Of a DNA stretch of 64,000 nt, positions 1,183 to 64,000 are shown piece after piece. Within the stretch, counting starts at the first letter, position 1, and every line of letters starts with the position of its first letter. This DNA comes from Verrucomicrobiia bacterium (GTDB lineage: Bacteria > Verrucomicrobiota > Verrucomicrobiia > Opitutales > Cerasicoccaceae), in the NCBI GenBank assembly GCA_030425485.1, contig JAUIAM010000021.1, positions 1-64,000 of the forward strand, read 5' to 3'. The notes under the pieces were generated by a model. It was not told where the DNA came from and did no database searches. It saw only the letters and a list, made by a program, of their open reading frames with translations. The position numbers and the translations under genes are program-made.

Positions 1183-3327
1183 ATGAGCCACCCCTTTCTC
1201 GAAAACACCTTTCACATCCCCTGGCACCGCCTCAAGCCCGAGTGCATTCAGGCCGACATCGAGCTCGCCCTGCAACAAACACAGGTACGCCTCAACGTCA
1301 TCGCCGACACCCCGCACGATGAGGTCAACCTCGACAACTCCCTGCTTGAGCTCGAGAACGCAACCGAAGACCTGAGCCGTGCCTGGGGCTACGTCTCCCA
1401 CCTGGACAGCGTGAGCAACTCCCCTGCCCTGCGCGAAGCCTACAACGCCATGTTGCCCAAGGTTTCGGAGTTCTACACCCGCATCCACCTCAACGACAAA
1501 CTCTGGTCCGTCGTCAAAGCCTTTGCCGAATCTGCGGAGGCCAAAACGCTTTCCGACATCCACCGGCGCCTGCTGGAGGAAACCCTGGCCGATTTCCGCG
1601 AATGCGGAGCCGACCTCCCCCCCGAGCAGAAAAAGAAGCTTGAACAGCTTAACACCGACCTCACCCGCCTGACCCAGAAGTACAGCGAGAACGTGCTCGA
1701 CTCCACCAACGCCTGGGAGCTGCTCATCACCGACGAAGCCCGCCTCGCCGGGCTGCCGGAATCCGCCCGCGACGCCGCCCGCGAGAGCGCCAAGACCAAG
1801 GGTCACGGCACGGACGACGCCCCTGTCTGGCGCTTCACCCTGCACATCCCCTCCATGCTCCCCGTCATGAAGTACGCGCAGGACGACTCCCTGCGGCGCG
1901 AGATCTGGGAAGCCTCGACCAAGCTCGGCTGGAGCCAAGACCACGATAACAGCCAGCTCATCGTGGACATCCTCAAGCTCCGCCAGGCCAAAGCCAAGCT
2001 TTTGGGCAAAAAGGACTTTGCCGACCTCGTACTCCAGCGTCGCATGGCTAAAAACGGCGCCGCCGCCCTCGCCTTTACCGAAGACCTCCACGCCCGCGTC
2101 AAACCCGCCTTCCTGGAGGAAGTCGAAGAGCTGGAAGCCTTCAAGGCCGAGCAAACCGGCAGCCCACGCGAGCACCTTGAGCCCTGGGAAGTCGGCTACT
2201 GGTCCGAAAAACTCCGTCACGCCCGCTACGAGCTGGACGAGGAGGAGCTGCGCCCGTACTTCCCCATGCCGATCGTTATCAGCGGTATGTACCAACTGGT
2301 CGAGCGCCTCTTCGGCGTGCGCATCGTCCAGCGCCCCACCGTCTACATCGACCCGGCGAGCGGACAGGAAACCCACTCCAACGACCCCCACACGCAGGCC
2401 CCCTTCCGCCCCACGGTCGAAGTCTGGCACCCGGACGTAAAGTACTATGACCTGCTTGACGAGAACTCGACCCACCTCGGCTCCTTTTTCACCGACTGGT
2501 TCCCGCGCGACAGCAAGCGCAGTGGTGCCTGGATGAACCACCTGCGCACGGGCAGCGTCAACCACGACGGCCCCAACGAACCCCACCTCGGCCTCATGTG
2601 CGGAAACATGAACGCCCCCCTCTCCGGCAAGCCCGCCCTGCTCACCCACGACGAGGTGCAGACCGTCTTCCACGAGTTCGGCCACCTCCTTCACCACCTT
2701 CTGGGCAAGGTCACCGTAAAAAGCCTCAACGGGGTCAACGTGGCCTGGGACTTCGTCGAGCTGCCTTCCCAGATCATGGAAAACTGGTGCTGGGAGCGCG
2801 ATGCCCTCAACGTCTTTGCCCGCCACTACGAGACAGGACAGCCCCTGCCCGAAGCACTCCTGGAAAAGATGCAGGCCGCGCGAAACTTCCAACAGGGCCA
2901 CTTCACCATGCGCCAGCTTTCCTTTGGCAAGATGGACCTCGACCTGCACATGACCTTTGCCAAGCAACCCGACCAGGACCTTGAGGCCTTTATCGACGCC
3001 TCGCTGGAGGACTACCGCGCCCCCCTCAAGACCAAAGCCCCGAGCATCATCCGCCGCTTCACCCACCTCTTTGCCGACTCCACTGGCTACGCCGCAGGCT
3101 ACTACTCCTATAAGTGGGCCGAGGTGCTAGACGCCGACGCCTTTACCCGCTTCCAGAAGGAAGGCGTGCTCAACAGCGAGACCGGCCGCGACTTCCGCCA
3201 CTGCATCCTCGAAAAAGGAAACAGCCAGCCCCCCGAAAAGCTCTTCCACGCCTTCATGGGCCGCGAGCCGGACCAGAACGCCCTCCTCGCCCGCTCCGGC
3301 CTCCTCGTCGAGGAAGACACGGCCTAG
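1183..3327 (+). CDS. prlC: M3 family metallopeptidase (oligopeptidase A-like)
   Basis: 714 aa ORF with HEFGH zinc motif (TVFHEFGHLLHHLL) and M3 family context. Confidence 0.92.
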   Translation: MSHPFLENTFHIPWHRLKPECIQADIELALQQTQVRLNVIADTPHDEVNLDNSLLELENATEDLSRAWGYVSHLDSVSNSPALREAYNAMLPKVSEFYTRIHLNDKLWSVVKAFAESAEAKTLSDIHRRLLEETLADFRECGADLPPEQKKKLEQLNTDLTRLTQKYSENVLDSTNAWELLITDEARLAGLPESARDAARESAKTKGHGTDDAPVWRFTLHIPSMLPVMKYAQDDSLRREIWEASTKLGWSQDHDNSQLIVDILKLRQAKAKLLGKKDFADLVLQRRMAKNGAAALAFTEDLHARVKPAFLEEVEELEAFKAEQTGSPREHLEPWEVGYWSEKLRHARYELDEEELRPYFPMPIVISGMYQLVERLFGVRIVQRPTVYIDPASGQETHSNDPHTQAPFRPTVEVWHPDVKYYDLLDENSTHLGSFFTDWFPRDSKRSGAWMNHLRTGSVNHDGPNEPHLGLMCGNMNAPLSGKPALLTHDEVQTVFHEFGHLLHHLLGKVTVKSLNGVNVAWDFVELPSQIMENWCWERDALNVFARHYETGQPLPEALLEKMQAARNFQQGHFTMRQLSFGKMDLDLHMTFAKQPDQDLEAFIDASLEDYRAPLKTKAPSIIRRFTHLFADSTGYAAGYYSYKWAEVLDADAFTRFQKEGVLNSETGRDFRHCILEKGNSQPPEKLFHAFMGREPDQNALLARSGLLVEEDTA

Positions 3328-49967: not shown

Positions 49968-50078
49968 TTGCCATATCTGTTCCAGTATTTTGCCCCGTAA
50001 AACAGAACACCCGTTCATTCATGGGCGGAGAATGAATCAAACTTTGTCCCCTTCGTGCCGGTGTGTTGAATCGACTCA

Positions 50079-51251
50079 TCAGAAAATTTCAGCGGGGTTG
50101 GCGGCACGGAGCTTGCGCGTGGCGAGGGCGCCGGCGATCAGGCACATGAAGAGCGTGAGGAAGAAAATGATGACGCAGTTGAGCGGGTCGAGGTAGGTCG
50201 CCATGTGGGCCACCTGCCGGGTAAAGTAGAACATGACCGCTGTCAGCGCGGTGCCGGGGATGAACCCGAATACGCTCAGGATGACCGACTCCTGCAGAAT
50301 GACGCCCGTAAAATAGCTATCGCGGAAACCGATGGACTTGAGCGTGGCATACTCCTCAAGGTGGTCGGTCACGTCGGTGTAGAGAATCTGGTAAACGATG
50401 ACCGCGCCCACGATGAGCGCGACGGCCATCGAGGCCGTGATGACAAAGCCGATGGGGGTACGCTCGCGCCAGTACTGCATCTCGTATTCGAGAAAGCCCT
50501 TGCGCGTGTACAGGCGCACGTCCTGGGGCAAAAAGCTGCCCAGCTCGGTCAGGACGGCCTCGGCGTCAGCACCGGGTTTGAGCTGAATCAAGCCGAGACT
50601 GACCACGGCGCGATCACCGCCCGGCCACAGGGGCAGAAAGGTGGCCTCATTCATGAGCATGTTACCATCGGCCACAAAAGTCGGGGCACAGGAAAAGAGC
50701 CCCTCGATGGTAACGCGGCGGTTGGCCACCTCGGTCACGGCCTCGCCGCTCTGCTCCACTTCGCGCACGAAGGGGCCAAGTTCGGGGCGGGAAAGGCGGT
50801 CGTAGAGCGCGACGCCGTCACGCTTGAGCTTCCAGCGCTGGGAGGAAATCTCCGGGTCGGAGAAGGCCTCCCTGGCCGGGTCCCAAGCCATGATAAAGAC
50901 TTCGCGCGTGCTCTGGTTTTCTGTGTTAATCAGGGGCAAGGCGCCCACGTACATAGGCACGACCTGCTCGACCTCGGCCAAGCCCTCGGCCTGCACGAGT
51001 CGGCGCAGGGGGAAGCCCTTGCTCACGCCAAGGTACTCGTACTGGCTGCTGACGACGAAGATGTCCGCCTTCATCTTGGCGTGCGGTCCGACCACCTGCT
51101 CAAAGAGCGCGGAGTTGAGCCCCATCTGAAACATCATCATGGTCACGGCAAAGGTGATGCCCGCCACCGCGGCGAAGAAGCGTTTCTTCTCCTTGACGAG
51201 GTTGAGCCAGGCCAGCGGGATGCCTAGCGGAATGATCCGGTTGAGCAGCAT
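50079..51251 (-). CDS. ABC exporter permease (DevC family)
   Basis: 390 aa; MLLNRIIPLGIPLAWLNLVKEKKRFFAAVAGITFAVTMMMFQMGL; FtsX-like C-terminus. Confidence 0.93.
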   Translation of the reverse strand: MLLNRIIPLGIPLAWLNLVKEKKRFFAAVAGITFAVTMMMFQMGLNSALFEQVVGPHAKMKADIFVVSSQYEYLGVSKGFPLRRLVQAEGLAEVEQVVPMYVGALPLINTENQSTREVFIMAWDPAREAFSDPEISSQRWKLKRDGVALYDRLSRPELGPFVREVEQSGEAVTEVANRRVTIEGLFSCAPTFVADGNMLMNEATFLPLWPGGDRAVVSLGLIQLKPGADAEAVLTELGSFLPQDVRLYTRKGFLEYEMQYWRERTPIGFVITASMAVALIVGAVIVYQILYTDVTDHLEEYATLKSIGFRDSYFTGVILQESVILSVFGFIPGTALTAVMFYFTRQVAHMATYLDPLNCVIIFFLTLFMCLIAGALATRKLRAANPAEIF

Positions 51252-51254
51252 GGT

Positions 51255-51539
51255 CTAGTATGGCTCTTTAATAACGGATGTAAAATCGGACCACTGTTCG
51301 ATGCGGAAAGTACGAATATCTCGTACGCTGGCGGGGAACCACGCCAGTGCGCGGAGCGCCTGTATTGCGCGAAAAAGATTGGCCATGTCTTCGTCCTCAG
51401 TGGTGTAAAGACTACCCTGAACCCATTGAAATCCGTAGCCAGCAAGCGTTACCTTAATATCGGCATAGGCCTGGGACACACCTTTTTCGTGGTGGCGTTC
51501 CGTCTCGGCGACAACCAGATCAAATGCAATCGCAAACAT
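51255..51539 (-). CDS. vapD: VapD family endoribonuclease-like protein (Cas2-like fold family)
   Basis: MFAIAFDLVVAETERHHEKGVSQAYADIKVTLAGYGFQWVQGSLYTTEDEDMANLFRAIQALRALAWFPASVRDIRTFRIEQWSDFTSVIKEPY, near full-length match to VapD signature. Confidence 0.93.
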   Translation of the reverse strand: MFAIAFDLVVAETERHHEKGVSQAYADIKVTLAGYGFQWVQGSLYTTEDEDMANLFRAIQALRALAWFPASVRDIRTFRIEQWSDFTSVIKEPY

Positions 51540-51541
51540 GC

Positions 51542-51763
51542 CTAGGCAGCCGGGTCGTGCCGGGCTTTCGAGTATGGGTAGTCCATGACTTCTCCCGTTG
51601 CGGGCACTTCGATACGCAACAGCCATTCTCCGTCATCACGCTGACGAGATGGCTCCAGGATATGGTATGTCGGACCATATTCGCCAAAGGTACGGTACTG
51701 GCCTAGCAACTGTGTATCATCGAAGCTGGCAACACTGTTTTGCATGAGTTTAAAGTCGTTCAT
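51542..51763 (-). CDS. DUF5397 / VapX-like antitoxin partner
   Basis: LLGQYRTFGEYGPTYHILEPSRQRDDGEWLLRIEVPATGEVMDYPYSKARHDP pattern; 2 nt upstream of vapD. Confidence 0.78.
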   Translation of the reverse strand: MNDFKLMQNSVASFDDTQLLGQYRTFGEYGPTYHILEPSRQRDDGEWLLRIEVPATGEVMDYPYSKARHDPAA

Positions 51764-51800
51764 ATAGGCGGGAATGTCAAGGTTTGTGCCCCTGTCTGGC

Positions 51801-52991
51801 TCAGGGCTGAATCTTGACTGTGACTTGGGCACCGATCAGCGAGCGGACCGCAGTGGGGTCGTCAAACTTGACCCGCACCATGACGACGCGCTTGTCGGCA
51901 AAGGCGGTCGGATCACGGCTAAAGAGGTCGTTCGGGGCGACGCGGGAGGCCACGCGGGAGACCTTGCCCGTGAGCTCTCCCGAGAGGGGCTGGCCGGAAA
52001 TAGTCGCAGCCTGCCCTACCTTGACCAAGGCGATGTCGTCGATGTAGACCTCGGCCTCGACGTACATCTCGCTCGTGTCGGCCAGCGAAAGCAAGCCCTC
52101 CATGCCCACGGCTTCACCGGGGCGGGCGTTGATTGCCAATACCGTACCGGCAAGCGGAGCCTTGACCGTGGCTTGAGCGAGCTGCGCCTTTGCCTGGGCC
52201 ACTTGAGCGGCAGCGGCGTCGGCCTGAGCCTGCACCTGCTTGATCTGGGCCTGAGCGATAGCCTGCTCGGCCTCGATCCCCGCACGCTCGGCTGCGATGA
52301 TACCGAGCTGGTCGCTGGCCGTCTTGGCATCGGCTTGTGCGGCTTTGACCTGGGTTTCTAAAATTTTCTGCTGAGCGGGGAAAGTCGCGTGCAGTTTGTT
52401 CATCTCAAGCCGGAGCACGGCCTGCTGGAACTCGATCTCGACGCGGTCGCTCTTGCCCGGGTCCCACTCCTTGATCACTCGGGTGTGCTCGTCGATCTCG
52501 CCTTGCAGGCGCTGGACGCCCGCGAGGTAGTCGCTTTTGGCCTGCGCAAGCTGGGCCTCGGCCTGCTCGACCGCGATTTGGGCGGCGGAGGCTTCCTGCG
52601 CGGCCACGGCCTGCCGGGCCTCCAACACGGCAAGTCGCTGGGTAAAGACACCCGCCTGTTGCTGGGCAATGCTCACGCCCTCAGCCGCAGCGGCGGCCTC
52701 TTTTTCTGCCGCTGTCACCGCAGCCTGCAAGAGCGGCGCACTGGTCAGCGTGGCCAGCGTGTCGCCCGCCTTGACCGCATCGCCGACCTTGACCTTGAGC
52801 TCAGCCACAATGGCTTGCCCGGTTGCTCCCGCCGGAGCGGCTACCTCGACCAGTCCCTCGCCCGGCACAATCCGGCCTAGCGCGGCCACTTGTCGCTGGG
52901 CCTGAAGCCCCGTACTGGCCATTAACAGGCAAGTGAGCACGCTCAGGCCAAGGGGCATCGTGGTGCGGGAACGGAAATTGCGCAAAAACAT
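51801..52991 (-). CDS. HlyD/DevB-family ABC exporter adaptor
   Basis: VAALGRIVPGEGLVEVAAPAG...coiled-coil Ala/Gln-rich hairpin...ATISGQPLSGELTGKVSRVASRVAPNDLFSRDPTAFADKRVVMVRVKFDD. Confidence 0.93.
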   Translation of the reverse strand: MFLRNFRSRTTMPLGLSVLTCLLMASTGLQAQRQVAALGRIVPGEGLVEVAAPAGATGQAIVAELKVKVGDAVKAGDTLATLTSAPLLQAAVTAAEKEAAAAAEGVSIAQQQAGVFTQRLAVLEARQAVAAQEASAAQIAVEQAEAQLAQAKSDYLAGVQRLQGEIDEHTRVIKEWDPGKSDRVEIEFQQAVLRLEMNKLHATFPAQQKILETQVKAAQADAKTASDQLGIIAAERAGIEAEQAIAQAQIKQVQAQADAAAAQVAQAKAQLAQATVKAPLAGTVLAINARPGEAVGMEGLLSLADTSEMYVEAEVYIDDIALVKVGQAATISGQPLSGELTGKVSRVASRVAPNDLFSRDPTAFADKRVVMVRVKFDDPTAVRSLIGAQVTVKIQP

Positions 52992-53187
52992 AAGCGGTGA
53001 GCATAGCCCCCGGCGCTCAGGCTTCAATGACGAAAGAAGGCCGAAGTCCGTAATCACATTGAGGGCCCGTCCAGGTCAGATAACAGGGTTAATCCATAGG
53101 TAGAATAGATACGCTTTGGGGCACTTCAATTATCCTACCATTTGAATTTGACAGAACGATAAAAAATGAACTCTTAATGCAAAACAT

Positions 53188-54225
53188 ATGAAAAAGCGTA
53201 CCCATTCTGCCCGGACTTTTATCGTTATTTTGCTTTCTTGCGGTCTCGCCGCCGTGTCTCCCCTCGCTGCCAGCATGCATATCGATACCGTGACGGTGGG
53301 TAATGCTGGCAATCTGGCAGACGCTGCAACCGGATATGGGGCGGTGGGCTACAACTACCATGTAAGCACCTATGAAGTAACTAACGCCCAATACACAACG
53401 TTTCTCAATTCAGTAGCCAGCACGGATACCCACGGCGTCTACAACGCATTGATGGGTTCGCATGCACTCGGTGGAATTGAACGCAGTGGCACCTCGGGCA
53501 GCTATACCTATACGGTAAAGGATGGCTTTGCCAACAAACCGGTTAATTACGTAAGCTTCTGGGATGCCGCCCGCTTTTCGAACTGGCTGACAAACGGACA
53601 GCCTACAGGCAGTCAGGACGCCTCAACCACTGAAAGCGGCACCTACGCGTTGAACGGCGTTACAAATCCGAACAACTCGTGGATGCTCCGCGATACGACG
53701 GCCTTCAATAATGGCGGAGTCGCCATCGCCAATGCCGATGAATGGTACAAGGCTGCCTACTATGATCCAAGCCTGAACACAGGCAATGGCGGCTACTGGC
53801 TGTATCCGACACAAAGCAATGGAACCCCCCTGGCGCAAACAGCACCCGGCGGCAGCAACAGTGCCAATTTTATGGATCAGGAGTTTTACTCTCCTTACGG
53901 CAACCCCATTGACGTCGGCTCATACATCGGCACGACGAGCGCCTATGGGGCTTACGATATGGCCGGAAACGTCTCGGAATGGCTGGAAGAAATCAACGGG
54001 ACCCATCCACAATGGCGCAATTACCGTGGCGGCTCCTTCGGTGATTGGCCCATTATGCAGGAGGCTGACTACGAAAGCCCAGGCCTGCTCCCCGATCAGG
54101 TTGCCGACGCGATAGGCTTTCGAATCGTGTCATTGAACGCGATTCCCGAACCGTCAAGCTACGCTTTGCTGGCCGGCCTTACCGTGGCATTGATTGCCAT
54201 GCTGCGTCGCCGCCAAACCCGGTAA
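53188..54225 (+). CDS. formylglycine-generating-enzyme-fold (SUMF1-like) PEP-CTERM protein
   Basis: YHVSTYEVTNAQYTTFLNSV, PVNYVSFWDAARFSNWL, YDMAGNVSEWLEE, RGGSFGDWP; C-term IPEPSSYALLAGLTVALIAMLRRRQTR. Confidence 0.9.
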   Translation: MKKRTHSARTFIVILLSCGLAAVSPLAASMHIDTVTVGNAGNLADAATGYGAVGYNYHVSTYEVTNAQYTTFLNSVASTDTHGVYNALMGSHALGGIERSGTSGSYTYTVKDGFANKPVNYVSFWDAARFSNWLTNGQPTGSQDASTTESGTYALNGVTNPNNSWMLRDTTAFNNGGVAIANADEWYKAAYYDPSLNTGNGGYWLYPTQSNGTPLAQTAPGGSNSANFMDQEFYSPYGNPIDVGSYIGTTSAYGAYDMAGNVSEWLEEINGTHPQWRNYRGGSFGDWPIMQEADYESPGLLPDQVADAIGFRIVSLNAIPEPSSYALLAGLTVALIAMLRRRQTR

Positions 54226-54318
54226 CCCCCGGTCAGAACCAGAAGTCGGTCTGGACGCGCGGCCGATAAGCCTACGACAAGTGCTTAGCCGTGTTGCGGA
54301 ACAGAGGGAATCCCAAGC

Positions 54319-55230
54319 TTGTCTCTGCGCCCCGATATGGCTTTGCTGGCAACCTTTATGACCGTCGCAGAATCCTACGCCCGCTGCCACGCGCTGACCC
54401 GCGAGCACTACGAGAACTTCCCCGTGGCCAAGCTCGTGCCCAAGGCGATCCGCCCCTACGTCAGCGCCGTCTATGCCTTTGCCCGCACCGCAGACGACAT
54501 CGCAGACGAGGGCTGGGGCCTGGCCGGGAGCCCTACCCCACAGGACCGCGTGGCCGCACTGGATGCCTACGAGGAACAGCTTGTGGCCGCCGCCGAGGGA
54601 CGCCCCGTCGGCGACGAGTACGCCTGGATTTTCCTCGCTCTGGCCGACACGATCGAAAAGACCGGCGCGCCGCTCCAGCTCTTTCGCGACCTGCTCAGTG
54701 CCTTTAAACAAGACTGCATCAAACTGCGCTACGAGACGCACGCCGAGGTGCTCGACTACTGCCGCCGCAGCGCGAACCCCATTGGCCGCCTCGTGCTCAT
54801 CCTGCACGGCCACGCCGACACGCAGAAGTTTGCCTGGTCTGACCAGATCTGCACCGCGCTCCAACTGGCCAACTTCTGGCAAGACGTGAGCGTGGACATC
54901 AAAAAGGATGGCCGCATCTACGTCCCCCGGGAGGACTGGGCCACCTTTGGCGTGACCGAAGCCATGTTTTCCCAACCGCCCGCGAGCCCGGAGTTCCGCC
55001 GCTGCCTCAAGCATCAGGTAGACCGCACCTATGCGCTCTTCAAAGAAGGGCGCGTGCTCTCCCGGCACCTGCCCTTTCCGCTCAGCATGGAAATCCGCCT
55101 GACCTGGCTCGGCGGGCAAACCATCCTGGACAAAATCATCGCCGCTGACTACGACACCGTCAGCGCACGCCCCAAGATAAACAAATTCGACAAGATCAAG
55201 CTCCTGCAAAAAGCCGCCTTCACCAGGTAG
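54319..55230 (+). CDS. hpnC: squalene synthase-like HpnC (start may be 54358)
   Basis: YARCHALTREHYENFPVAKLVPKAIRPYVSAVYAFARTADDIADE; NFWQDVSVDIKKDGRIYVPRED. Confidence 0.93.
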   Translation: MSLRPDMALLATFMTVAESYARCHALTREHYENFPVAKLVPKAIRPYVSAVYAFARTADDIADEGWGLAGSPTPQDRVAALDAYEEQLVAAAEGRPVGDEYAWIFLALADTIEKTGAPLQLFRDLLSAFKQDCIKLRYETHAEVLDYCRRSANPIGRLVLILHGHADTQKFAWSDQICTALQLANFWQDVSVDIKKDGRIYVPREDWATFGVTEAMFSQPPASPEFRRCLKHQVDRTYALFKEGRVLSRHLPFPLSMEIRLTWLGGQTILDKIIAADYDTVSARPKINKFDKIKLLQKAAFTR

Positions 55231-55253
55231 CAGGACGCGGTCCTGCACCTGTG
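55221..55253. repeat. hairpin repeat copy 1 overlapping hpnC stop
   Basis: CACcAGGTaGCAGGAC-gcg-GTCCTGCACCTGTG; 26-bp core GCAGGACnnnGTCCTGCACCTGTGAT shared with 58397-58422. Confidence 0.8.
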
Positions 55254-55274
55254 ATCCTTCGGATCACTCTTTTT
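55251..55274 (+). terminator. Rho-independent terminator-like hairpin
   Basis: GTGATCC-ttc-GGATCAC-TCTTTTT. Confidence 0.7.
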
Positions 55275-55416
55275 GGTGGCATTGGCGAATACTTCAAGCT
55301 TACGTAAGCATCCGGTGAGGCTGGCTCAGCTTTTGGACAATAGCAGAGCGTTTGTAAACATTAACGCCTTGCCAGCGGGGGGCATTGTTCGTGGATTAGC
55401 AGTTTGTTGCCAAATC

Positions 55417-57603
55417 ATGTCCTCTGAGTCCAAAGAAGCGGTCCAGGCCCGCAAAAAGTCCAACCTCGCCTTTACCTTCATGTCGCTCGAACCCGAGCGC
55501 AAGGATGCCATGGCGGTGTTTTACGACTTTTGCCGACGGGTAGACGACATCGCGGACGACCCGGAGCGACCCGACGAGCAGAAGGCACGCGAGCTCCAGG
55601 ACTGGCGCGACGAGATCAATGCCTGCTACCGCGCCGACAGTGGTCAGCTCAAGCTGGCCCACGAGCTCAAGCCCGTCATCATGCGCTACGATGTCGTGCG
55701 CGAGGACCTGCTCGCCATCATCGACGGCGTGGCCATGGACATCGGCGGCGCGCGCTTCCAGACTTTTCACGACCTCCAACGCTACTGCTACGGCGTGGCC
55801 TCCGCCGTTGGGCTCGTCTCGATCAAGATTTTCGGCTGCACGCATCCACGCACGCCCGAGTACGCCGAGACGCTCGGCTATGCCCTCCAGTTTACCAACA
55901 TCCTGCGCGATGTGGTCGAGGACCGCATCGAGATGGGTCGCGTGTACCTGCCGCAGGAAGAGTTGGCCGCGCTCGGCGTCAGCGAGGACGACCTGCTCGA
56001 CCCCTCGCAGAACCCCGCCTGCCAGAAGCTTTTCCGCCTCTGCTATTTCCGCTGCAAGCACTTTTTCAACAAAGCCCGACGCCTCCTGCCCGAGTCCGAG
56101 CGGGGCAACCTCAAGGCCGCCCTCGTCATGGGCGCATTTTACGAGGACATCCTGGAGAAAATCGCCGCCGGCGGGTTCGACATCAAGGTCAAGCGCACGC
56201 GCCTCTCCAAAGGCCGCAAGCTGCAGTTGCTTTTCCGCACCATGCGCGAGCTCAAGCAACCGCTCAAGCCCAAGCGGCTCCCTGGTCGTGCCGCCGTCCT
56301 CGGCGGAGGCATTGCGGGGATCACGGCCGCGCTTGAGCTCGGCATCCAGGGCTACACGCCGCACCTTTACGAATCGAAGACCTACCTCGGCGGGCGCGCT
56401 CACAGCCTGACCGACGCCGCCACCGGGCTGACGCTGGACAACTCTCAACACATCGTCATGGGCTGCTACAAGAGCTTTCTGAAGCTGGTCGATCGGCTCG
56501 GCATCGGCGACAAGCTGGAGGCTCAGGACAGCATGACCGTGCCCTACATCAGCCCCGGCGGGAAGTGGTCTACCCTCGCGGCCAAAAACCTGCCCGCACC
56601 TTTCCACCTCCTCGGCGGCCTCTTTGCCTTTGATGCGCTGAGCACCGCCGACCGCCTGGCCATTATCCACATGGGGCTGGTCATGCGCCTGGAGGCACGC
56701 CCGAAAGAAGACGAAACCGCTGAAAACTGGCTGCGCCGCCACAAGCAAACCGACGGCGCCATCCGCGCACTCTGGGAGCCGTTTTGCGTGGCCGCGCTCA
56801 ACGAGCCCGTGGCCACCTCCAGCGCACGCCTGCTCCACGAGACCATGAAACGCTCGCTCTTTGGCAAGGCCAGCGACGCCACCATCCTCCTCTCAAAAGT
56901 CGGCCTGAGCGAACTCTTCGAGCCCGAGACGGAGCTGTTTCTCAAGAGTATCGGCGGCAGCCTGAGCCTTTCCAAAAAGATCGCCCAACTGGTCGAAGCC
57001 GACGGGCGCGTCGTCGCGATGGAAACCTCCAAGGGCGAGCGCATCGAAGCCGGGCTTTTCGTCAGTGCCCTGCCCTGGAACGGCCTACGCGGGCTCCTGC
57101 CCGCCGGACTACGCCTGCAGGAGCGCGTGGCCGCCATCCCCTCGGCCGCCATCCTCAGCATCCACCTGCTAACCGATCGCAAGCTCTACGACACGGGCGC
57201 GGACTTCGTCGGCCTGCTCGACTCGCCCATCCACTGGGTCTTTGATCGCACCTGCACCCTACCCGCCGAGCGCAGCAACGAGCACCTCTACGCCGTCGTG
57301 GTCAGCGCGGCGGACGAGTTGCTCGACCTCAAGAGCAACGAGATCGTGGACAAGCTCATGGCCGAGCTGGAACGCTTTTTCCCCGCCACCAAGGAGCTGA
57401 CCGTCAACCGCTCGCTCGTGTACAAGAGCCGCGACGCTACCTTTGCCGCCCGCCCCTCGACCGAGCTCTTGCGCCCCAACGCCCAAGACGCCCCTTGGGA
57501 GAACTTCTTCCTCGCCGGTGACTGGGTCAACAACGGCCTCCCCGCCACGATCGAAAGCGCCGCCGAAAGCGGATTCGCCCTGAGCGAAGTGCTGGATGGG
57601 TAA
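55417..57603 (+). CDS. fused presqualene diphosphate synthase HpnD - hydroxysqualene dehydroxylase/amine oxidase HpnE
   Basis: N-terminal FYDFCRRVDDIADDPE and DVVEDRIEMGRVYLPQEEL (prenyl synthase); C-terminal AAVLGGGIAGITAALELGIQGYTPHLYESKTYLGGRAHS (FAD) in one 728-aa frame. Confidence 0.93.
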   Translation: MSSESKEAVQARKKSNLAFTFMSLEPERKDAMAVFYDFCRRVDDIADDPERPDEQKARELQDWRDEINACYRADSGQLKLAHELKPVIMRYDVVREDLLAIIDGVAMDIGGARFQTFHDLQRYCYGVASAVGLVSIKIFGCTHPRTPEYAETLGYALQFTNILRDVVEDRIEMGRVYLPQEELAALGVSEDDLLDPSQNPACQKLFRLCYFRCKHFFNKARRLLPESERGNLKAALVMGAFYEDILEKIAAGGFDIKVKRTRLSKGRKLQLLFRTMRELKQPLKPKRLPGRAAVLGGGIAGITAALELGIQGYTPHLYESKTYLGGRAHSLTDAATGLTLDNSQHIVMGCYKSFLKLVDRLGIGDKLEAQDSMTVPYISPGGKWSTLAAKNLPAPFHLLGGLFAFDALSTADRLAIIHMGLVMRLEARPKEDETAENWLRRHKQTDGAIRALWEPFCVAALNEPVATSSARLLHETMKRSLFGKASDATILLSKVGLSELFEPETELFLKSIGGSLSLSKKIAQLVEADGRVVAMETSKGERIEAGLFVSALPWNGLRGLLPAGLRLQERVAAIPSAAILSIHLLTDRKLYDTGADFVGLLDSPIHWVFDRTCTLPAERSNEHLYAVVVSAADELLDLKSNEIVDKLMAELERFFPATKELTVNRSLVYKSRDATFAARPSTELLRPNAQDAPWENFFLAGDWVNNGLPATIESAAESGFALSEVLDG

Positions 57604-57679
57604 GCTTGAATTCCGTCACTGAGGCACCTTCTCATCGACCTTGACACCTTACTAAATACATATATAAGTAAGGCAGAGT

Positions 57680-57922
57680 ATGCAGATAAAAATCACCAGC
57701 AAAAGGCAGGTGACCTTCCCGCAGCGCGTGATGGAAAAACTCGGCGTGCAAGCAGGTGACACGCTCGTCATTGAAGAATCCAGAGACGGCTTCACCCTCA
57801 AGCCACAGCGTTTTTCCACCAAAAACCTCGCGCCCTTGCGCGATAAGGTTAACGCTGACTTACCCGCCCTCGACCTGAACGCCACCCGCCATGCCGCGCT
57901 CGACCCCAAGCTACGGGATTGA
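57680..57922 (+). CDS. AbrB/SpoVT-MazE-like antitoxin
   Basis: MQIKITSKRQVTFPQRVMEKLGVQAGDTLVIEESRDGFTLKP swapped-hairpin domain. Confidence 0.88.
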   Translation: MQIKITSKRQVTFPQRVMEKLGVQAGDTLVIEESRDGFTLKPQRFSTKNLAPLRDKVNADLPALDLNATRHAALDPKLRD

Positions 57923-58304
57923 TACCTCCATCTTCGTTCGGTTGCTGACTGGGCACCCTGCCAAGGACTACGCGCAAACGCTCGACGCCCTTGAGCGACT
58001 CCTGAAGCGTGAGCCAAGCGCTGCGCTTTATGTGTCCAATCAGGTGATCGGCGAAGCCTATATCGCCCTTCAACACCACTACCAAATCAGCAAAAGCGAT
58101 GCGCGAGAAGCCATGCTAAAGCTGCTCACGGGCAGCATGATTCGCCCGCTCAATGGCGACGATGCACTAACCTGCCTGCGTGCAAAGACAGGCTGCGGCT
58201 TACTCGACCGACTCATCACGCAGGATTACGCCGCCCGGGATGCCATCGTACTGACAAACGACAAGAAAATGGCTAAACTGACAGAGGCGAAACTGCTCGG
58301 CTAG
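57891..58304 (+). CDS. PIN-domain VapC-like toxin
   Basis: YGIDTSIFVRLLTGHP ... CGLLDRLITQDYAARDAIVLTNDKKMAKL; overlaps antitoxin by 32 bp. Confidence 0.88.
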   Translation: MPRSTPSYGIDTSIFVRLLTGHPAKDYAQTLDALERLLKREPSAALYVSNQVIGEAYIALQHHYQISKSDAREAMLKLLTGSMIRPLNGDDALTCLRAKTGCGLLDRLITQDYAARDAIVLTNDKKMAKLTEAKLLG

Positions 58305-58396
58305 AGCATCAACAGCTCTCCGCTGGCGAAAAGAGATTAGCGTGGAGCCTTTGACAAATATCTGTCTGCTCAAACCCTAAAGAGTAACGCACAAGC

Positions 58397-58422
58397 ATCA
58401 CAGGTGCAGGACTTAGTCCTGC
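58397..58422. repeat. hairpin repeat copy 2 overlapping shc stop
   Basis: reverse complement GCAGGAC-TAA-GTCCTGCACCTGTGAT, identical arms to 55230-55255; TAA loop is the shc stop codon. Confidence 0.8.
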
Positions 58423-60374
58423 CCTGCCAGTTTCCGGTACTTCGCGAGGGCATACAATGGCCAAGACCACTGGTAGGAGGAGTACTTGAGATAGTAGATG
58501 CGGGGGAAGCCCGTGCCGGTGAATTCCTCGTAGTTCCAGGAGCCATTCTCCTCCTGCGTGCTGAGCAGGTAGTCGATGCCGCGTCGGACGGACGGGCGGT
58601 CGGCGTCGCCAAAGCAGAGCAGACCGAGCAGGGCCCAGGCCGTTTGCGAGGCGGTGGACTTGCCCGTGCCGCGCGTCTGGGCGTCGTGGTAGGTCCAGCA
58701 GGACTCGCCCCAACCGCCGTCAGCGTTCTGGTGATTTTCGAGCCAGTTGCGGGCCTTCTTGAGGAAGGGCGCGTCCATGTCCTCACCGATGGCGTGCAGA
58801 CCGCGAATGGCGTGCCCGGTGCCGTAAATGTAGTTCACGCCCCAGCGGCCGTACCAGGAGCCGTCCTCCTCCTGCGTATCGAGGAGGAACTTGCGCGCGC
58901 GTTGGACGATCTCATCCTCGCGGGTGTAGCCAAAGGCGGCCATCGTCTCGAGCGAGCGGCCCGTGATGTCGCTGCATGGCGGGTCGAGGATAGCGTTGTG
59001 GTCGGCAAAGGGAATTTCTTCGAGCCAGGCGTCGTTGATGTCCTTGTCGAAGGCGGCAAAGCCCCCCTCCTTGCACTGCATGGCGCGGCACCAGCGCATG
59101 CCCCGGTCGAGGGCGTGGGCCTTGCGGCGGGGGTTGGAGGCGGTGAGGTCTTTCAGGCCGAGCATGACCTGGAAGGAATCGTCCACGTCCGGGTACCAGT
59201 CGTTGTTAAACTCAAAGGCCCAGCCTGCGGCCTCGGGGAAGTCGCAGTTTTCCTTCCAGTCGCCGCGGATGCCGATCTCGCAGTCCAGCAGCCAGTCGGC
59301 GCACTTGGTCATGCGGGGGTCGTCGCTGGGGAAGCCGCTCTCGGAGAGGGCCATGGCGATGATGGCCGTGTCCCAGACGGGTGAGTGACAGGGGGCGATG
59401 CGCCAGTCCGTTTCAAGGTCCTGCTTCGGATCGTGCTTGGGATAGGTCGGGCTGCCGAGGCAGAGGTTGTCAAAGTGCTCGCGGTTGAGCTCGAAAAGCG
59501 GGTGCTCCTTGGAGTAGCCCATCAGCTCGAAGGCGATGAGCACGTTCATGATGGCGGGGAAAATCGCGCCCATACCGTCAGAGCCCTGCCCTACGCGATC
59601 GCACATCCAGGCTTCGGCCTTGCGGAGGGCACGCTTACGGAACCAGGACTCGGGCAGATGATTGACGAAGCGCCCGAGCTTGTCCGCCACGAGAAAGAAG
59701 TTTTTCCACGAGAGCTTTTTCTCCGAATACGGCAGCGAAAGATTACCGTCGAGCGTGCCCGCGGGGTACAGTTCGTTCAGGTCCGGGCAGCTCTCGATGA
59801 TGCGCACCGGCTTGTAGTGGTTGATGACCATCAGCGGCACGATCATGTTTCGCGTCCAACTGGACATGCGGTAGATCGTGATGGGGAACCAATTGGGCAT
59901 GAGCATGAGCTCGGCCGGGATCAGCGGGCAATTCTCCCACGGAAAGCAGCCAAACATGGCCAGGTAAAGCTTGTTCCAGGTGTGGCAAGCCGGGATGCCG
60001 CCCAGCTCGAGGATCTTATCCCGCGCAGCCACCATGTGCGGGGCGTTCATGGACTCGCCCGCCATCTTGAGCGCATAGTAGCCCTTAACCGAAGCGTTGA
60101 GCTCGCTGGGGCCGTCGGTAAACTGCGGCCAGCCGCCGTCCTCGCGCTGCCACTTCTTGATAAAGGTCACGATCTGACGCTCGCGGTCGGCGTCGACCTC
60201 ACCTGTCCAGCGGTAGTACAGGAGGTAGTCGCAGGCCACGGTCGAGTCCACGGGGAGCTCGCAATTCCAGTAGCCATCCTCGTGCTGGATGGACATGAGA
60301 TAGTCCTGCACTTTGGCGATGGCGGCATCGACGCCTTTAGCGGAACGTTCGTTGGTGTCAGTTGTCGGTTGCAT
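58413..60374 (-). CDS. shc: squalene-hopene cyclase
   Basis: 653 aa; QW motifs and PCVSPVWDT-type region (CHSPVWDTAIIAMAL), DGSWYGRWGVNYIYGTGHAIRGL. Confidence 0.97.
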   Translation of the reverse strand: MQPTTDTNERSAKGVDAAIAKVQDYLMSIQHEDGYWNCELPVDSTVACDYLLYYRWTGEVDADRERQIVTFIKKWQREDGGWPQFTDGPSELNASVKGYYALKMAGESMNAPHMVAARDKILELGGIPACHTWNKLYLAMFGCFPWENCPLIPAELMLMPNWFPITIYRMSSWTRNMIVPLMVINHYKPVRIIESCPDLNELYPAGTLDGNLSLPYSEKKLSWKNFFLVADKLGRFVNHLPESWFRKRALRKAEAWMCDRVGQGSDGMGAIFPAIMNVLIAFELMGYSKEHPLFELNREHFDNLCLGSPTYPKHDPKQDLETDWRIAPCHSPVWDTAIIAMALSESGFPSDDPRMTKCADWLLDCEIGIRGDWKENCDFPEAAGWAFEFNNDWYPDVDDSFQVMLGLKDLTASNPRRKAHALDRGMRWCRAMQCKEGGFAAFDKDINDAWLEEIPFADHNAILDPPCSDITGRSLETMAAFGYTREDEIVQRARKFLLDTQEEDGSWYGRWGVNYIYGTGHAIRGLHAIGEDMDAPFLKKARNWLENHQNADGGWGESCWTYHDAQTRGTGKSTASQTAWALLGLLCFGDADRPSVRRGIDYLLSTQEENGSWNYEEFTGTGFPRIYYLKYSSYQWSWPLYALAKYRKLAGQD

Positions 60375-60435
60375 CTAGAGTATAATTCGCTGAGAAGATT
60401 ACGTAAATTCTTTCAAGACTGACAATAATAGACTT

Positions 60436-61095
60436 ATGGCACTGATTTTGTTCCCAACTAAGTTTGAAGCTGAGCCGTTTATCCAATCGCTCGATAACGC
60501 TGTGAAGTACGACATGGGCGAAGGTGAGACCTGGGTCGGCGAGTCCGGCCGCACCACCGTGCACGTGGTCATCATCGGCATGGGCCTGCCCCACTGCGTG
60601 AACCGGGCCAAGCCCCCGCTGGAGCTCGTCAAGGGCAAGCGGGTCTTTCTGGCGGGCTTCGCCGGCGCGCTCGATCCCGCCCTGCAGCGCGGAGAGATCG
60701 TCACCGAGACGGGCGAAGGCGCCCTCGGCGACGGCAAAATCTACACCGCCGATAAGGTCATCAACACCCCCGAGGCCAAGGCCCAACTCTTTGCCCAAAC
60801 CGGCAAGCCCGTCGTCGATATGGAGTCGGCCCACGTGGCCAAGGCCGCGGAGGAAGCGGGCAAAACCCTGACCATTATCCGCGGAATCAGTGACACGGCC
60901 GCCGAGCCGCTGCCGGACTTTCTCTCCAAGGGCTACGACCAGGCCAAGGGCAAGGAAACCCCGCTGCGCATGGCCGGACACATGGCCACCCACCCCGGCG
61001 ACATCGGCAAGATGAAGGCCCTGCTGGCCAGTTGGGAGCCCGTCCGCAAGGCCATCGCCGAGGCCGTCACCGCCGCCGTGGCCGACGGCAAGTAG
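60436..61095 (+). CDS. nucleoside phosphorylase-like protein (HpnG-like)
   Basis: VVIIGMGLPHCVNRAK, FLAGFAGALDPALQRGEIV, VVDMESAHVAKAAEEAGKTLTIIRGISDTA. Confidence 0.82.
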   Translation: MALILFPTKFEAEPFIQSLDNAVKYDMGEGETWVGESGRTTVHVVIIGMGLPHCVNRAKPPLELVKGKRVFLAGFAGALDPALQRGEIVTETGEGALGDGKIYTADKVINTPEAKAQLFAQTGKPVVDMESAHVAKAAEEAGKTLTIIRGISDTAAEPLPDFLSKGYDQAKGKETPLRMAGHMATHPGDIGKMKALLASWEPVRKAIAEAVTAAVADGK

Positions 61096-61193
61096 AGGTC
61101 AGGTGGACACAGGCGAAAGGCCCGCGCGTTGACCAAGCGTGTATCCAATGGCAGAGACTGAGCCTGCCCTGTGCCGATATGTTTGATTCTTTT

Positions 61194-61230
61194 TTCACGC
61201 AAAGACGCAGAGGCGCAAAGAGGATGAAGA
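61194..61230. repeat. dispersed-repeat-like CACGCAAAGACGCAGAGGCGCAAAG
   Basis: pattern shared with 49936-49967. Confidence 0.45.
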
Positions 61231-61292
61231 AGTACCACGACTTATAGAGCGGTTCAAATGAAGGAGTAGCCAAAAATGGCTATCTATTTTAA

Positions 61293-61348
61293 CCACAGAT
61301 TGCACAGATAGGATCGGACTAATCTGCGTGCATCTGTGTAATCTGCGG
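61293..61348. repeat. inverted repeat CCACAGATTgCACAGAT...ATCTGTGtAATCTGcGG
   Basis: long imperfect palindrome; half-site also at 63181-63208 (CCGCAGATTGCGCAGAT). Confidence 0.7.
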
Positions 61349-61394
61349 ACACAATATGCTTCGCATTCAGGTAAGATATACCTGCCCAAAGACA

Positions 61395-61427
61395 AAAAAA
61401 GCCGACCCCATGTGGAGTCGGCTTTTT
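61395..61427. terminator. bidirectional terminator between hpnG-like and hpnH
   Basis: AAAAAAAGCCGAC-tccacatggg-GTCGGCTTTTT. Confidence 0.88.
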
Positions 61428-61464
61428 CGCGAAATGAGTTAAAACCTAAAGCGCAAGGCCCGCC

Positions 61465-62691
61465 TTAGCGGTCGTTGCTGTCGGCGGAGACCTTTTCCTC
61501 GCGCGGGACGCTGCGCGTCATGCGGTTGGCGGCGATCTGCTCCATCAGCTCGTCGCGACCTGAGGTCGTGGCGCTGGAGGAAGAGCAGGAGTGAGCACCA
61601 CCACCGGCGGCTTCACGAGCTGCGGCCTCATCCTTCATCTTGGTGTAAAGGGCTTCTTCCTCGGCGGTGAAGGTGATCTTCTTGCGGAGGTTCTTGCTGG
61701 CCTTAAACATACGGATGGCGCCGGGCAGCGAAAAGCTGTCGTCCACCGCGCTGGCTTCGTAGCCGCAGTGCACCATGCAGTCCTTGCAACGCTCGTCTGT
61801 GCCCTTTTTGCCGTAGCGGGGCCAGTCGGTCGTGTCCATCATCTGCTGGAAAGTCTTGGTGTAACCGTCGGCCAGGAGGTAGCAGGGCTTTTGCCAGCCA
61901 AAGACGTTGTAGGTCGGGTTACCCCACGGGGTGCAGTTGTAGTCGATTTCGCCCTTGAGGAAGGCGAGGAAGTTCGGGCTGTGGTTAAAGAGCCACTCCT
62001 TCTTGGCACCGCTGAGGATCTTCTTGAAGAGAACCTTGGTGCGGTCGCTTTCGAGGAAGATGTCCTGCTCGGGAGCCTTTTCGTAAGGATAGCCGGGGGA
62101 AAGCATCATGCTCTCGACGCCGACCTTCATCAGCTCGTCGAAGAGCCCGTGGACGCGGTCCGGGTCGGCATTGTTGAAGAGGGTCGTGTTTGTGGTGACA
62201 CGGAAGCCCATCTCGACGGCCTGCTTGATGGCCTTGAAAGCGATGTCGTAGGTGCCGTCGCGGGATACGGAGCGGTCGTGCTCCTCCTTGAGGCCGTCCA
62301 TGTGGACCGAGAAAGTCAGTTGCTTGTGCGGCTTGAATTTCTTGAGCGCGCGTTCGAGCAGGAGGGCGTTTGTGCAGAGGTAGATGTAGCGGCCCTGCTT
62401 AATGAGGCCATCGACGATCTGCTCAATTTCCGGGTGGATGAGCGGCTCACCACCGGCGATGGACACGATGGGCGCACCGCACTCTTCGGCGGCGGCCAAG
62501 GCCTTCTCGGCAGAAACACGCTTCTTCAGGATGTGCTCCGGGAACTGGATCTTGCCACAACCCTCGCAGGCGAGGTTGCAACGGAAGAGCGGCTCGAGCA
62601 TGAGCACGAGTGGATAACGCTTACGTCCTTTGAGTTTTTGACCCATGACATAAGATGCCACGGTCCAGGCCTGAGAAATGGGAACTGCCAT
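61465..62691 (-). CDS. hpnH: hopanoid biosynthesis radical SAM protein HpnH
   Basis: LVLMLEPLFRCNLACEGCGKIQFPEHILKKR, SIAGGEPLIHPEI; CxxxCxxC SAM motif variant; start at internal Met 48. Confidence 0.94.
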   Translation of the reverse strand: MAVPISQAWTVASYVMGQKLKGRKRYPLVLMLEPLFRCNLACEGCGKIQFPEHILKKRVSAEKALAAAEECGAPIVSIAGGEPLIHPEIEQIVDGLIKQGRYIYLCTNALLLERALKKFKPHKQLTFSVHMDGLKEEHDRSVSRDGTYDIAFKAIKQAVEMGFRVTTNTTLFNNADPDRVHGLFDELMKVGVESMMLSPGYPYEKAPEQDIFLESDRTKVLFKKILSGAKKEWLFNHSPNFLAFLKGEIDYNCTPWGNPTYNVFGWQKPCYLLADGYTKTFQQMMDTTDWPRYGKKGTDERCKDCMVHCGYEASAVDDSFSLPGAIRMFKASKNLRKKITFTAEEEALYTKMKDEAAAREAAGGGAHSCSSSSATTSGRDELMEQIAANRMTRSVPREEKVSADSNDR

Positions 62692-62837
62692 AGGTGCGGA
62701 AAAGTGAAGGTTAATGTCTGCCCTGTCAAGAGCGGATACCGTGCCAGACTTGCAACAAGCCCAGCTACTTCCAGTACGGACCATCAACAATTTAGCTTGT
62801 TCCCCACCCCACGGCTCATCACAATACCACAACCGCC

Positions 62838-63161
62838 ATGCACGAAGTTTACCGCAACTGGGATTCGGCCAGGGTTGGGCTGCTCAACGGCGTCCTGCAA
62901 AGCTCCGGCATTCCCACCATTTTGCGCAACTGGACCGGCTCCAATATCACCGAAATCCCCATCCCGGCCATGTTCCCCAACATCTGCGTCATGAACGCCG
63001 AAGACATCGAGCCGGCCCGTGAACTAATAAAAGCCTACCTGGAGGCACCCGCCATCAGGGGCCCGGAGTGGACCTGCCCCGCCTGTGGCGAAACCAACGA
63101 GGCCAACTTCACCGAATGCTGGGCCTGCCAAACAGAACAGCCGGGGCTGACGAACAGCTAA
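62838..63161 (+). CDS. DUF2007-type putative signal-transducing protein with C-terminal zinc ribbon
   Basis: GLLNGVLQSSGIPTILRN ... WTCPACGETNEANFTECWACQTEQP. Confidence 0.82.
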   Translation: MHEVYRNWDSARVGLLNGVLQSSGIPTILRNWTGSNITEIPIPAMFPNICVMNAEDIEPARELIKAYLEAPAIRGPEWTCPACGETNEANFTECWACQTEQPGLTNS

Positions 63162-63323
63162 GGTATTTGGAATATTCTATCCGCAGATTGCGCAGATACA
63201 CACCGATTAAATGCCGTACCTATTTTTGCACAGCAGCGGAATCAGTGGTTTAAACAAATAGGCACCGCAGGCCACGATTTATAGTGAAGTCGCCTTCGGG
63301 CAATCCCCTAAGCAGGCCACCCT

Positions 63324-64000
63324 TTACCCGCAAAACGCCCCGCCGGGCTCGTCTCCGGAGGCACTGATGGCCATGGGCACACCGTTGACCAGCGGGTAGC
63401 GGTAGATCTTACCCTCGAAGTTGCGGATCACGACTTCGTCGTCGTTCAATTCCTGAATGTACTCGGGGTTGATCGGGACCTTGCCGCCGCCACCAGGGGC
63501 ATCGATGACGTACTGCGGCACGGCGTAGCCCGTGGTGTGGCCACGCAGCCCACGAATAATCTCGATGCCCTTGCGCACATCCGTCCGCAGGTGGGCACTG
63601 CCCGTAATCAAATCACACTGGTAAAGATAGTAAGGGCGCACGCGCATCATGAGCAGACGGTGCACGAGCTGCTTCATGGTCTGTAGGTCGTCGTTCACAC
63701 CTTTGAGGAGCACACTCTGGTTCCCCAGCGGGACACCGGCGAAGCTGAGGCGTTCGGTGGCGGCGCGCAGCTCCTCTGTGCATTCGTTGGGGTGGTTGAC
63801 GTGGATGCTCATCCAGATCGGACCGTGCTTTTTAAGGATTTCGCACAGCTCAGGCGTAATCCGCTGCGGAAGAAAGACCGGGATGCGTGAGCCGATGCGG
63901 ATAAATTCCACGTGGGGAATAGCCCGCAGGCGACCCAGCAGGTAATCCAACTTGCGCTCGGAGAGGAGCAGCGGGTCACCACCGGAGAGGAGCACGTCGC
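63324..64000 (-). CDS. KamA/lysine-2,3-aminomutase-family radical SAM protein (truncated by window end)
   Basis: [95 protein letters not shown]. Confidence 0.93.

Follow-up and report, generated by a model that had tools for sequence, protein, structure and literature searches.

A lineage-restricted family of REP-like two-hairpin repeats at the 3' ends of bacterial genes

The convergent genes hpnC and shc, located in a 64,000-nucleotide stretch of DNA from a Verrucomicrobiia bacterium (the whole of which is here called the window), both end in copies of one palindromic element, and these copies are members of a family dispersed through the genomes of its genus. Each member consists of two different hairpins in a fixed order; copies at gene ends sit preferentially in the orientation of the gene that they adjoin, differ in presence among orthologs, and in some genes provide the stop codon. 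The explanation that we judge best, and hold to be probable, is that the element represents a lineage-restricted, dispersed family of palindromic DNA repeats resembling REPs.

The family is a case of palindromic repeats that tag housekeeping genes at their ends, and at times rewrite those ends, in a bacterial order that has received little study and with apparently no RAYT transposase in residence. Since some orthologs carry the element and others do not, what it does to transcript ends and C-termini is directly testable; for annotation there is also a warning, namely that a repeat has contributed the final residues of some of these proteins.

The two copies in the window and the genes that they end

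The initial annotation reported a 26-nucleotide hairpin motif at 55230-55255 (+) and again, inverted, at 58397-58422 (-). Both copies are exact at these positions, and a scan of the window allowing up to three mismatches finds no other (shuffled sequences lead one to expect 0.00). The junctions are also as first described: base 55230, where the motif starts, is the closing G of the TAG that ends hpnC; the loop of the first hairpin (HP1) in copy 2 is the shc TAA (58415-58413); and the two motifs agree at 23 of 26 positions. What needed revision is the extent, as the 26-nt core is present but forms only the first half of a 49-nt element with two hairpins. The window copies measure 48-49 nt and run in the order HP1, linker ACCT, HP2 and T-rich tail (Table 1), and on the strand of its gene each folds into two hairpins (-21.1 kcal/mol, z -3.8, for copy 1; -21.5 kcal/mol, z -3.9, for copy 2). 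A terminator scan picked up HP2 of copy 1, the scan as a whole not exceeding shuffled sequences (8 vs 6.3). In shc the element reaches into the protein: the last residues, QD, are encoded by HP1 of copy 2, and related shc proteins have other ends.

Table 1. Copies of the element in the window, their hairpins and their host genes
Feature	Position	Strand	Description
hpnC (squalene/phytoene synthase family), host of copy 1	54358..55230	+	PF00494, E 4.4e-56
Copy 1 of element	55230..55277	+	hpnC 3' end; R1 match 69.2 bits, E 1.6e-16
HP1 of copy 1	55230..55246	+	GCAGGAC-GCG-GTCCTGC; first base is the final base of the hpnC stop TAG
HP2 of copy 1	55251..55277	+	GTGATCC-TTC-GGATCAC, then TCTTTTT; intrinsic-terminator-like
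Copy 2 of element	58374..58422	-	shc 3' end; R1 match 58.4 bits, E 1.1e-13
HP1 of copy 2	58406..58422	-	GCAGGAC-TAA-GTCCTGC; loop is the shc stop codon
HP2 of copy 2	58374..58401	-	GTGATGC-TTGT-GCGTTAC, two G.U pairs in the sense strand; then TCTTTAGGGT
shc (squalene-hopene cyclase), host of copy 2	58413..60374	-	PF13243 and PF13249

Comparisons were made with three genomes of the same genus (the congeners G001, G002 and G003, this genome being G000), whose hpnC orthologs are 84-86% identical to that of the window. The window shc is 67-70% identical to shc of Cerasicoccus, by this protein the closest named organisms, but the best match that any of the three congeners has to it reaches only 36-38% identity; given this difference, it may have been exchanged horizontally or retained in some lineages and not in others. 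The segment between the two elements holds hpnD-hpnE, as had been noted, though as one fused ORF (55417-57603; SQS_PSY and Amino_oxidase) of 728 residues with squalene synthase and amine oxidase domains; at the matching place the congeners have open frames of 735-753 residues. Genes for a MazE/AbrB-type antitoxin and a PIN-domain protein overlap at 57680-58304; they were missed by the codon-usage gene caller and may have atypical codon usage.

Two near-identical inverted copies bracketing a segment could also mark a recombination site at which the stretch from 55.25 to 58.4 kb is flipped, as had been suggested. This idea we reject as scarcely credible: the relative orientation of hpnC and hpnD is the same in all four congeneric species (G000-G003), among which no inverted state of the hpnC-hpnD segment was seen; no recombinase was found within the segment; about 50 copies exist genome-wide; and each copy of the pair is oriented by its own gene. 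The inverted arrangement only reflects the convergence of hpnC and shc, each of which carries a copy in its own direction. At C62:31961 (+) and 32146 (-) a further pair of convergent genes likewise has one copy for each gene.

A dispersed family and its architecture

A genome-wide search for the 26-nt motif with up to three mismatches returned 26 copies in the 3.81-Mb genome and none for the reversed control; further copies thus exist, and the view that the window pair is a local coincidence or a simple duplication is rejected by this census. With R1, a covariance model built from 18 copies whose matches were counted at E of at most 0.001, there are at least 50 matches in this genome, at least 85, 50 and 31 in the three congeners, and 0-5 in other genera of the family; these are lower bounds, as 150 first-look candidates were scored per genome, and the weakest matches include some palindromes of a second family described below. 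The 26-nt pattern is absent from all genomes outside the genus among the 36 searched, and the curated covariance models of Rfam gave no match at E of at most 1 within 50000-64000. An origin from phages or plasmids was rejected, no match being present in phage or plasmid records or in viral contigs. Only one copy was called inside a gene (a large ORF).

The consensus consists of HP1 (GCAGGRC-nnn-GYCCTGC, plus variants), ACCY, HP2 (GTGATSC-nnn(n)-GSATCAC) and a T-rich tail. Among 114 copies, standard pairs fill 97.4% of 1,587 pair cells and double-sided changes affect 7 of 14 pairs; covariation is 0.228, versus 0.071 in shuffled and at most 0.061 in slid controls, the latter being at most 49% paired. 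The column counts indicate that these double-sided changes are largely a few sub-family states, not independent events. Imperfect pairs comprise 13 G.U and 26 A.C cells; G.U is not the commoner, contrary to what sense-strand selection at the RNA level would produce, so that no such selection is visible, and conservation is no higher in copies close to stops than in those far away. Selection on the RNA is left unsupported by these two comparisons.

Beyond HP2, a T-tail (at least five T in the following 10 nt) is found in 31 of 46 copies in this genome, where the background is 10%, and in 13 of 60 copies in G001; T-tails are uncommon throughout G001-G003 (10-30% of copies). A third hairpin follows HP2 in 54 of 80 congener copies (0.7% in shuffles) and in 6 of 46 here, and the 60 third hairpins found in all genomes have 34 different 5' arms.

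Local tandem duplications that include the element occur with a period of about 106-115 bp at two places in G000, one at C17:74080 and 74195 (L068 2581-2744), the other at C60:152471 and 152577 (L064 2472-2626); tandem duplication is one way in which the number of copies grows. The same genome contains a second palindromic family, composed of GGGGGCTATGCGCCCCC, GCAGGCATAGCCTGC and CGATGCnnnnGCATCG, then a hairpin of 14-20 bp, then a conserved tail near CAAACTGGGTTGCACCCC; the arms of the hairpin vary between copies while their complementarity is kept. Its sites in G000 are C28:14949, C29:3431, C37:162, C49:54140, C56:116496, C58:19444 and C30:36007, and in G001 it is found at the hpnC 3' end (L159, about 1390-1490, minus strand). 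More recurrent palindromic or GC-rich modules (for example, GGGGTAGCGACCAACGGGAGCG, GTAGGGGCGTAGCCCCTCAAT and GGATCAAACGCCGCGCGTTT) lie at many G000 loci, often beside R1 copies.

Placement at gene ends

Distances to stop codons, which the initial annotation had proposed to tabulate, were taken from the better-scoring copies (48 here, 62 in G001, and 10 each in G002 and G003), with genes called by a simple codon-usage script. In 65 of these 130 copies the start falls from -26 to +12 nt relative to a stop on the same strand. If copies were spread uniformly over those same intergenic spaces, 15.3 would be expected, and the maximum in 20,000 simulations was 30; this null ignores promoters and other constraints. 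The mirror arrangement was seen in 1 of 85 cases. Start offsets cluster at -1 to +5, with the stop just upstream of the element; at -10 to -12, with the stop in or beside the HP1 loop, as in shc; and at -24/-25, with the stop within HP2. Roughly half of all copies do not adjoin a stop, and some are antisense in G001. TAG adjoins 19 of 27 copies in this genome, versus 115 of 245 called genes overall; it is not required as a target site, since TAA and TGA occur beside copies too. Host genes that could be named by Pfam are mostly housekeeping genes, including members of the trpA, ispF, dnaJ, htpG, ptsI, purH, purL, gltX and gltA families.

Genes for tRNA are ended in the same way. One copy in this genome starts at the base directly after a tRNA-Cys gene, and two sister-genus genomes have one R1 copy each that runs from the base after tRNA-Arg in a tRNA array; the arrays are closely packed, with 17 (L205, G008) and 9 (L206, G009) predicted genes. 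Because copies adjoin tRNA 3' ends, placement is not tied to translation alone. Escherichia coli REPs at most 15 nt from a stop are reported to stall ribosomes (cited in PMC12306157), and a comparable control of translation by the present element would suit the half of the copies that overlap a stop or lie within about 12 nt of one, but with untranslated genes among its neighbors and no excess of G.U pairs we find such a role highly improbable.

Orthologs differ in whether they carry the element. The hpnC protein ends in AAFTR in four species, and only in this genome among them is the stop (TAG) joined to the R1 element; the G001 gene has TAA and a different palindromic element, and those of G002 and G003 have TGA and no element. 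At G001:1385452 the protein ends in an element-coded EGRSPSP*, in place of the eight residues NPEPGNTT* that close its counterpart in G000, and for the genes at C11:11503 and C17:23156 the G003 orthologs also bear the element, joined at slightly different bases. Between congeners the intergenic sequence has diverged too far for empty sites to be aligned with filled ones, and the comparison yielded no such pair close enough to reveal a clean insertion with target duplication.

The copies might instead be plain intrinsic terminators selected at operon ends, alike through common origin and gene conversion and not through mobility. The oriented placement directly after stops and tRNA ends, the T-tract after HP2 in this genome and the many convergent contexts all speak for this, but simple termination needs neither the conserved HP1 nor the ACCY linker, congeners usually have no T-tract, G.U pairs are not in excess, copies far from stops are equally conserved, and ORFs read into the element; we consider this explanation unlikely.

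Proposed origin and comparison with known systems

A mobile REP-like donor of stop codons was among the first suggestions for the pair. The dispersed family, the abutment on stops, the stops within HP1 and HP2, and the presence or absence among orthologs bear out the donor; its mobility, like termination by the element, is something that we infer. No transposase was identified that would mobilize it. We hypothesize that a core HP1-ACCY-HP2 element spread to many sites, either as mobile or as template-copied DNA. It sits preferentially, and in a single orientation, at the immediate 3' end of genes, either right behind the stop codon or the CCA of a tRNA or extending into the final codons. In the latter position HP1 or HP2 provides the new stop, and at gene ends of either kind the element would form the hairpin that closes the transcript on its 3' side. 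Here it would probably also serve as intrinsic terminator or mRNA 3'-end stabilizer, since HP2 mostly precedes a T-tract here; on sequence grounds termination appears plausible and stabilization possible. Overall, we favor with reasonable though far from full confidence a REP-like palindrome at gene ends that spreads by dispersal and has a terminator role in this genome. A bolder version, in which a RAYT-free palindrome inserts specifically at the 3' ends of protein and tRNA genes, recognizing gene or transcript ends and rebuilding the end with its own stop and hairpins, strikes us as decidedly doubtful.

Set beside REPs, the favored REP-like element is likewise a short, high-copy and mostly extragenic palindrome, but at 49 nt and with two hairpins it is longer than a single REP. 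It has no conserved tetranucleotide (GTAG or CGTC tag) 5' of HP1, the conserved flank being 3' (ACCYGTGAT), and a search for RAYT (PF01797) gave 0 matches in this genome, in the near-complete G001 and in G003, and 4 in G002 only. Since three of the four genomes lack a RAYT and the GTAG tag is missing, the element is REP-like and not a REP proper; it agrees with GTAG REPs (PMC3733652) in being palindromic and extragenic, in its size and number of copies, and in donating stops, but a true REP mobilized by a RAYT (Y1 transposase) is very unlikely. Relative to the REP repeats already known from bacteria, it is a new cousin specific to this lineage.

The nearest likeness is to the REPs tagged with GTAG or CGTC, which include those of Opitutus terrae, of the same phylum; the termini of GTAG REPs are reported to be a frequent source of TAG stops for the ORFs beside them (Di Nocera et al. 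2013, PMC3733652). Those REPs and the present element are both short dispersed palindromes that number from tens to hundreds and lie close to gene ends or overlap them, but the present element is untagged, strings together two or three unlike hairpins in a set order, abuts tRNA 3' ends as well, and occurs in four genomes in three of which no RAYT was found. E. coli REPs and BIMEs are also 3'-flanking palindromic repeats, a fraction of the REPs lying at most 15 nt from stops (PMC12306157); their sequence is unrelated, and BIMEs alternate opposite REPs whereas the present element places different hairpins head to tail. With intrinsic (Rho-independent) terminators it shares a hairpin, HP2, and a T-rich tail in this genome, a resemblance that is weak in congeners, where the T-tract is often absent; unlike them, it has an additional conserved HP1 and is conserved in sequence across loci. 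Rickettsia palindromic elements (PMC3733652), finally, are palindromic repeats that likewise add coding sequence to host genes, but they do so by in-frame insertion within ORFs, whereas the element described here ends them.
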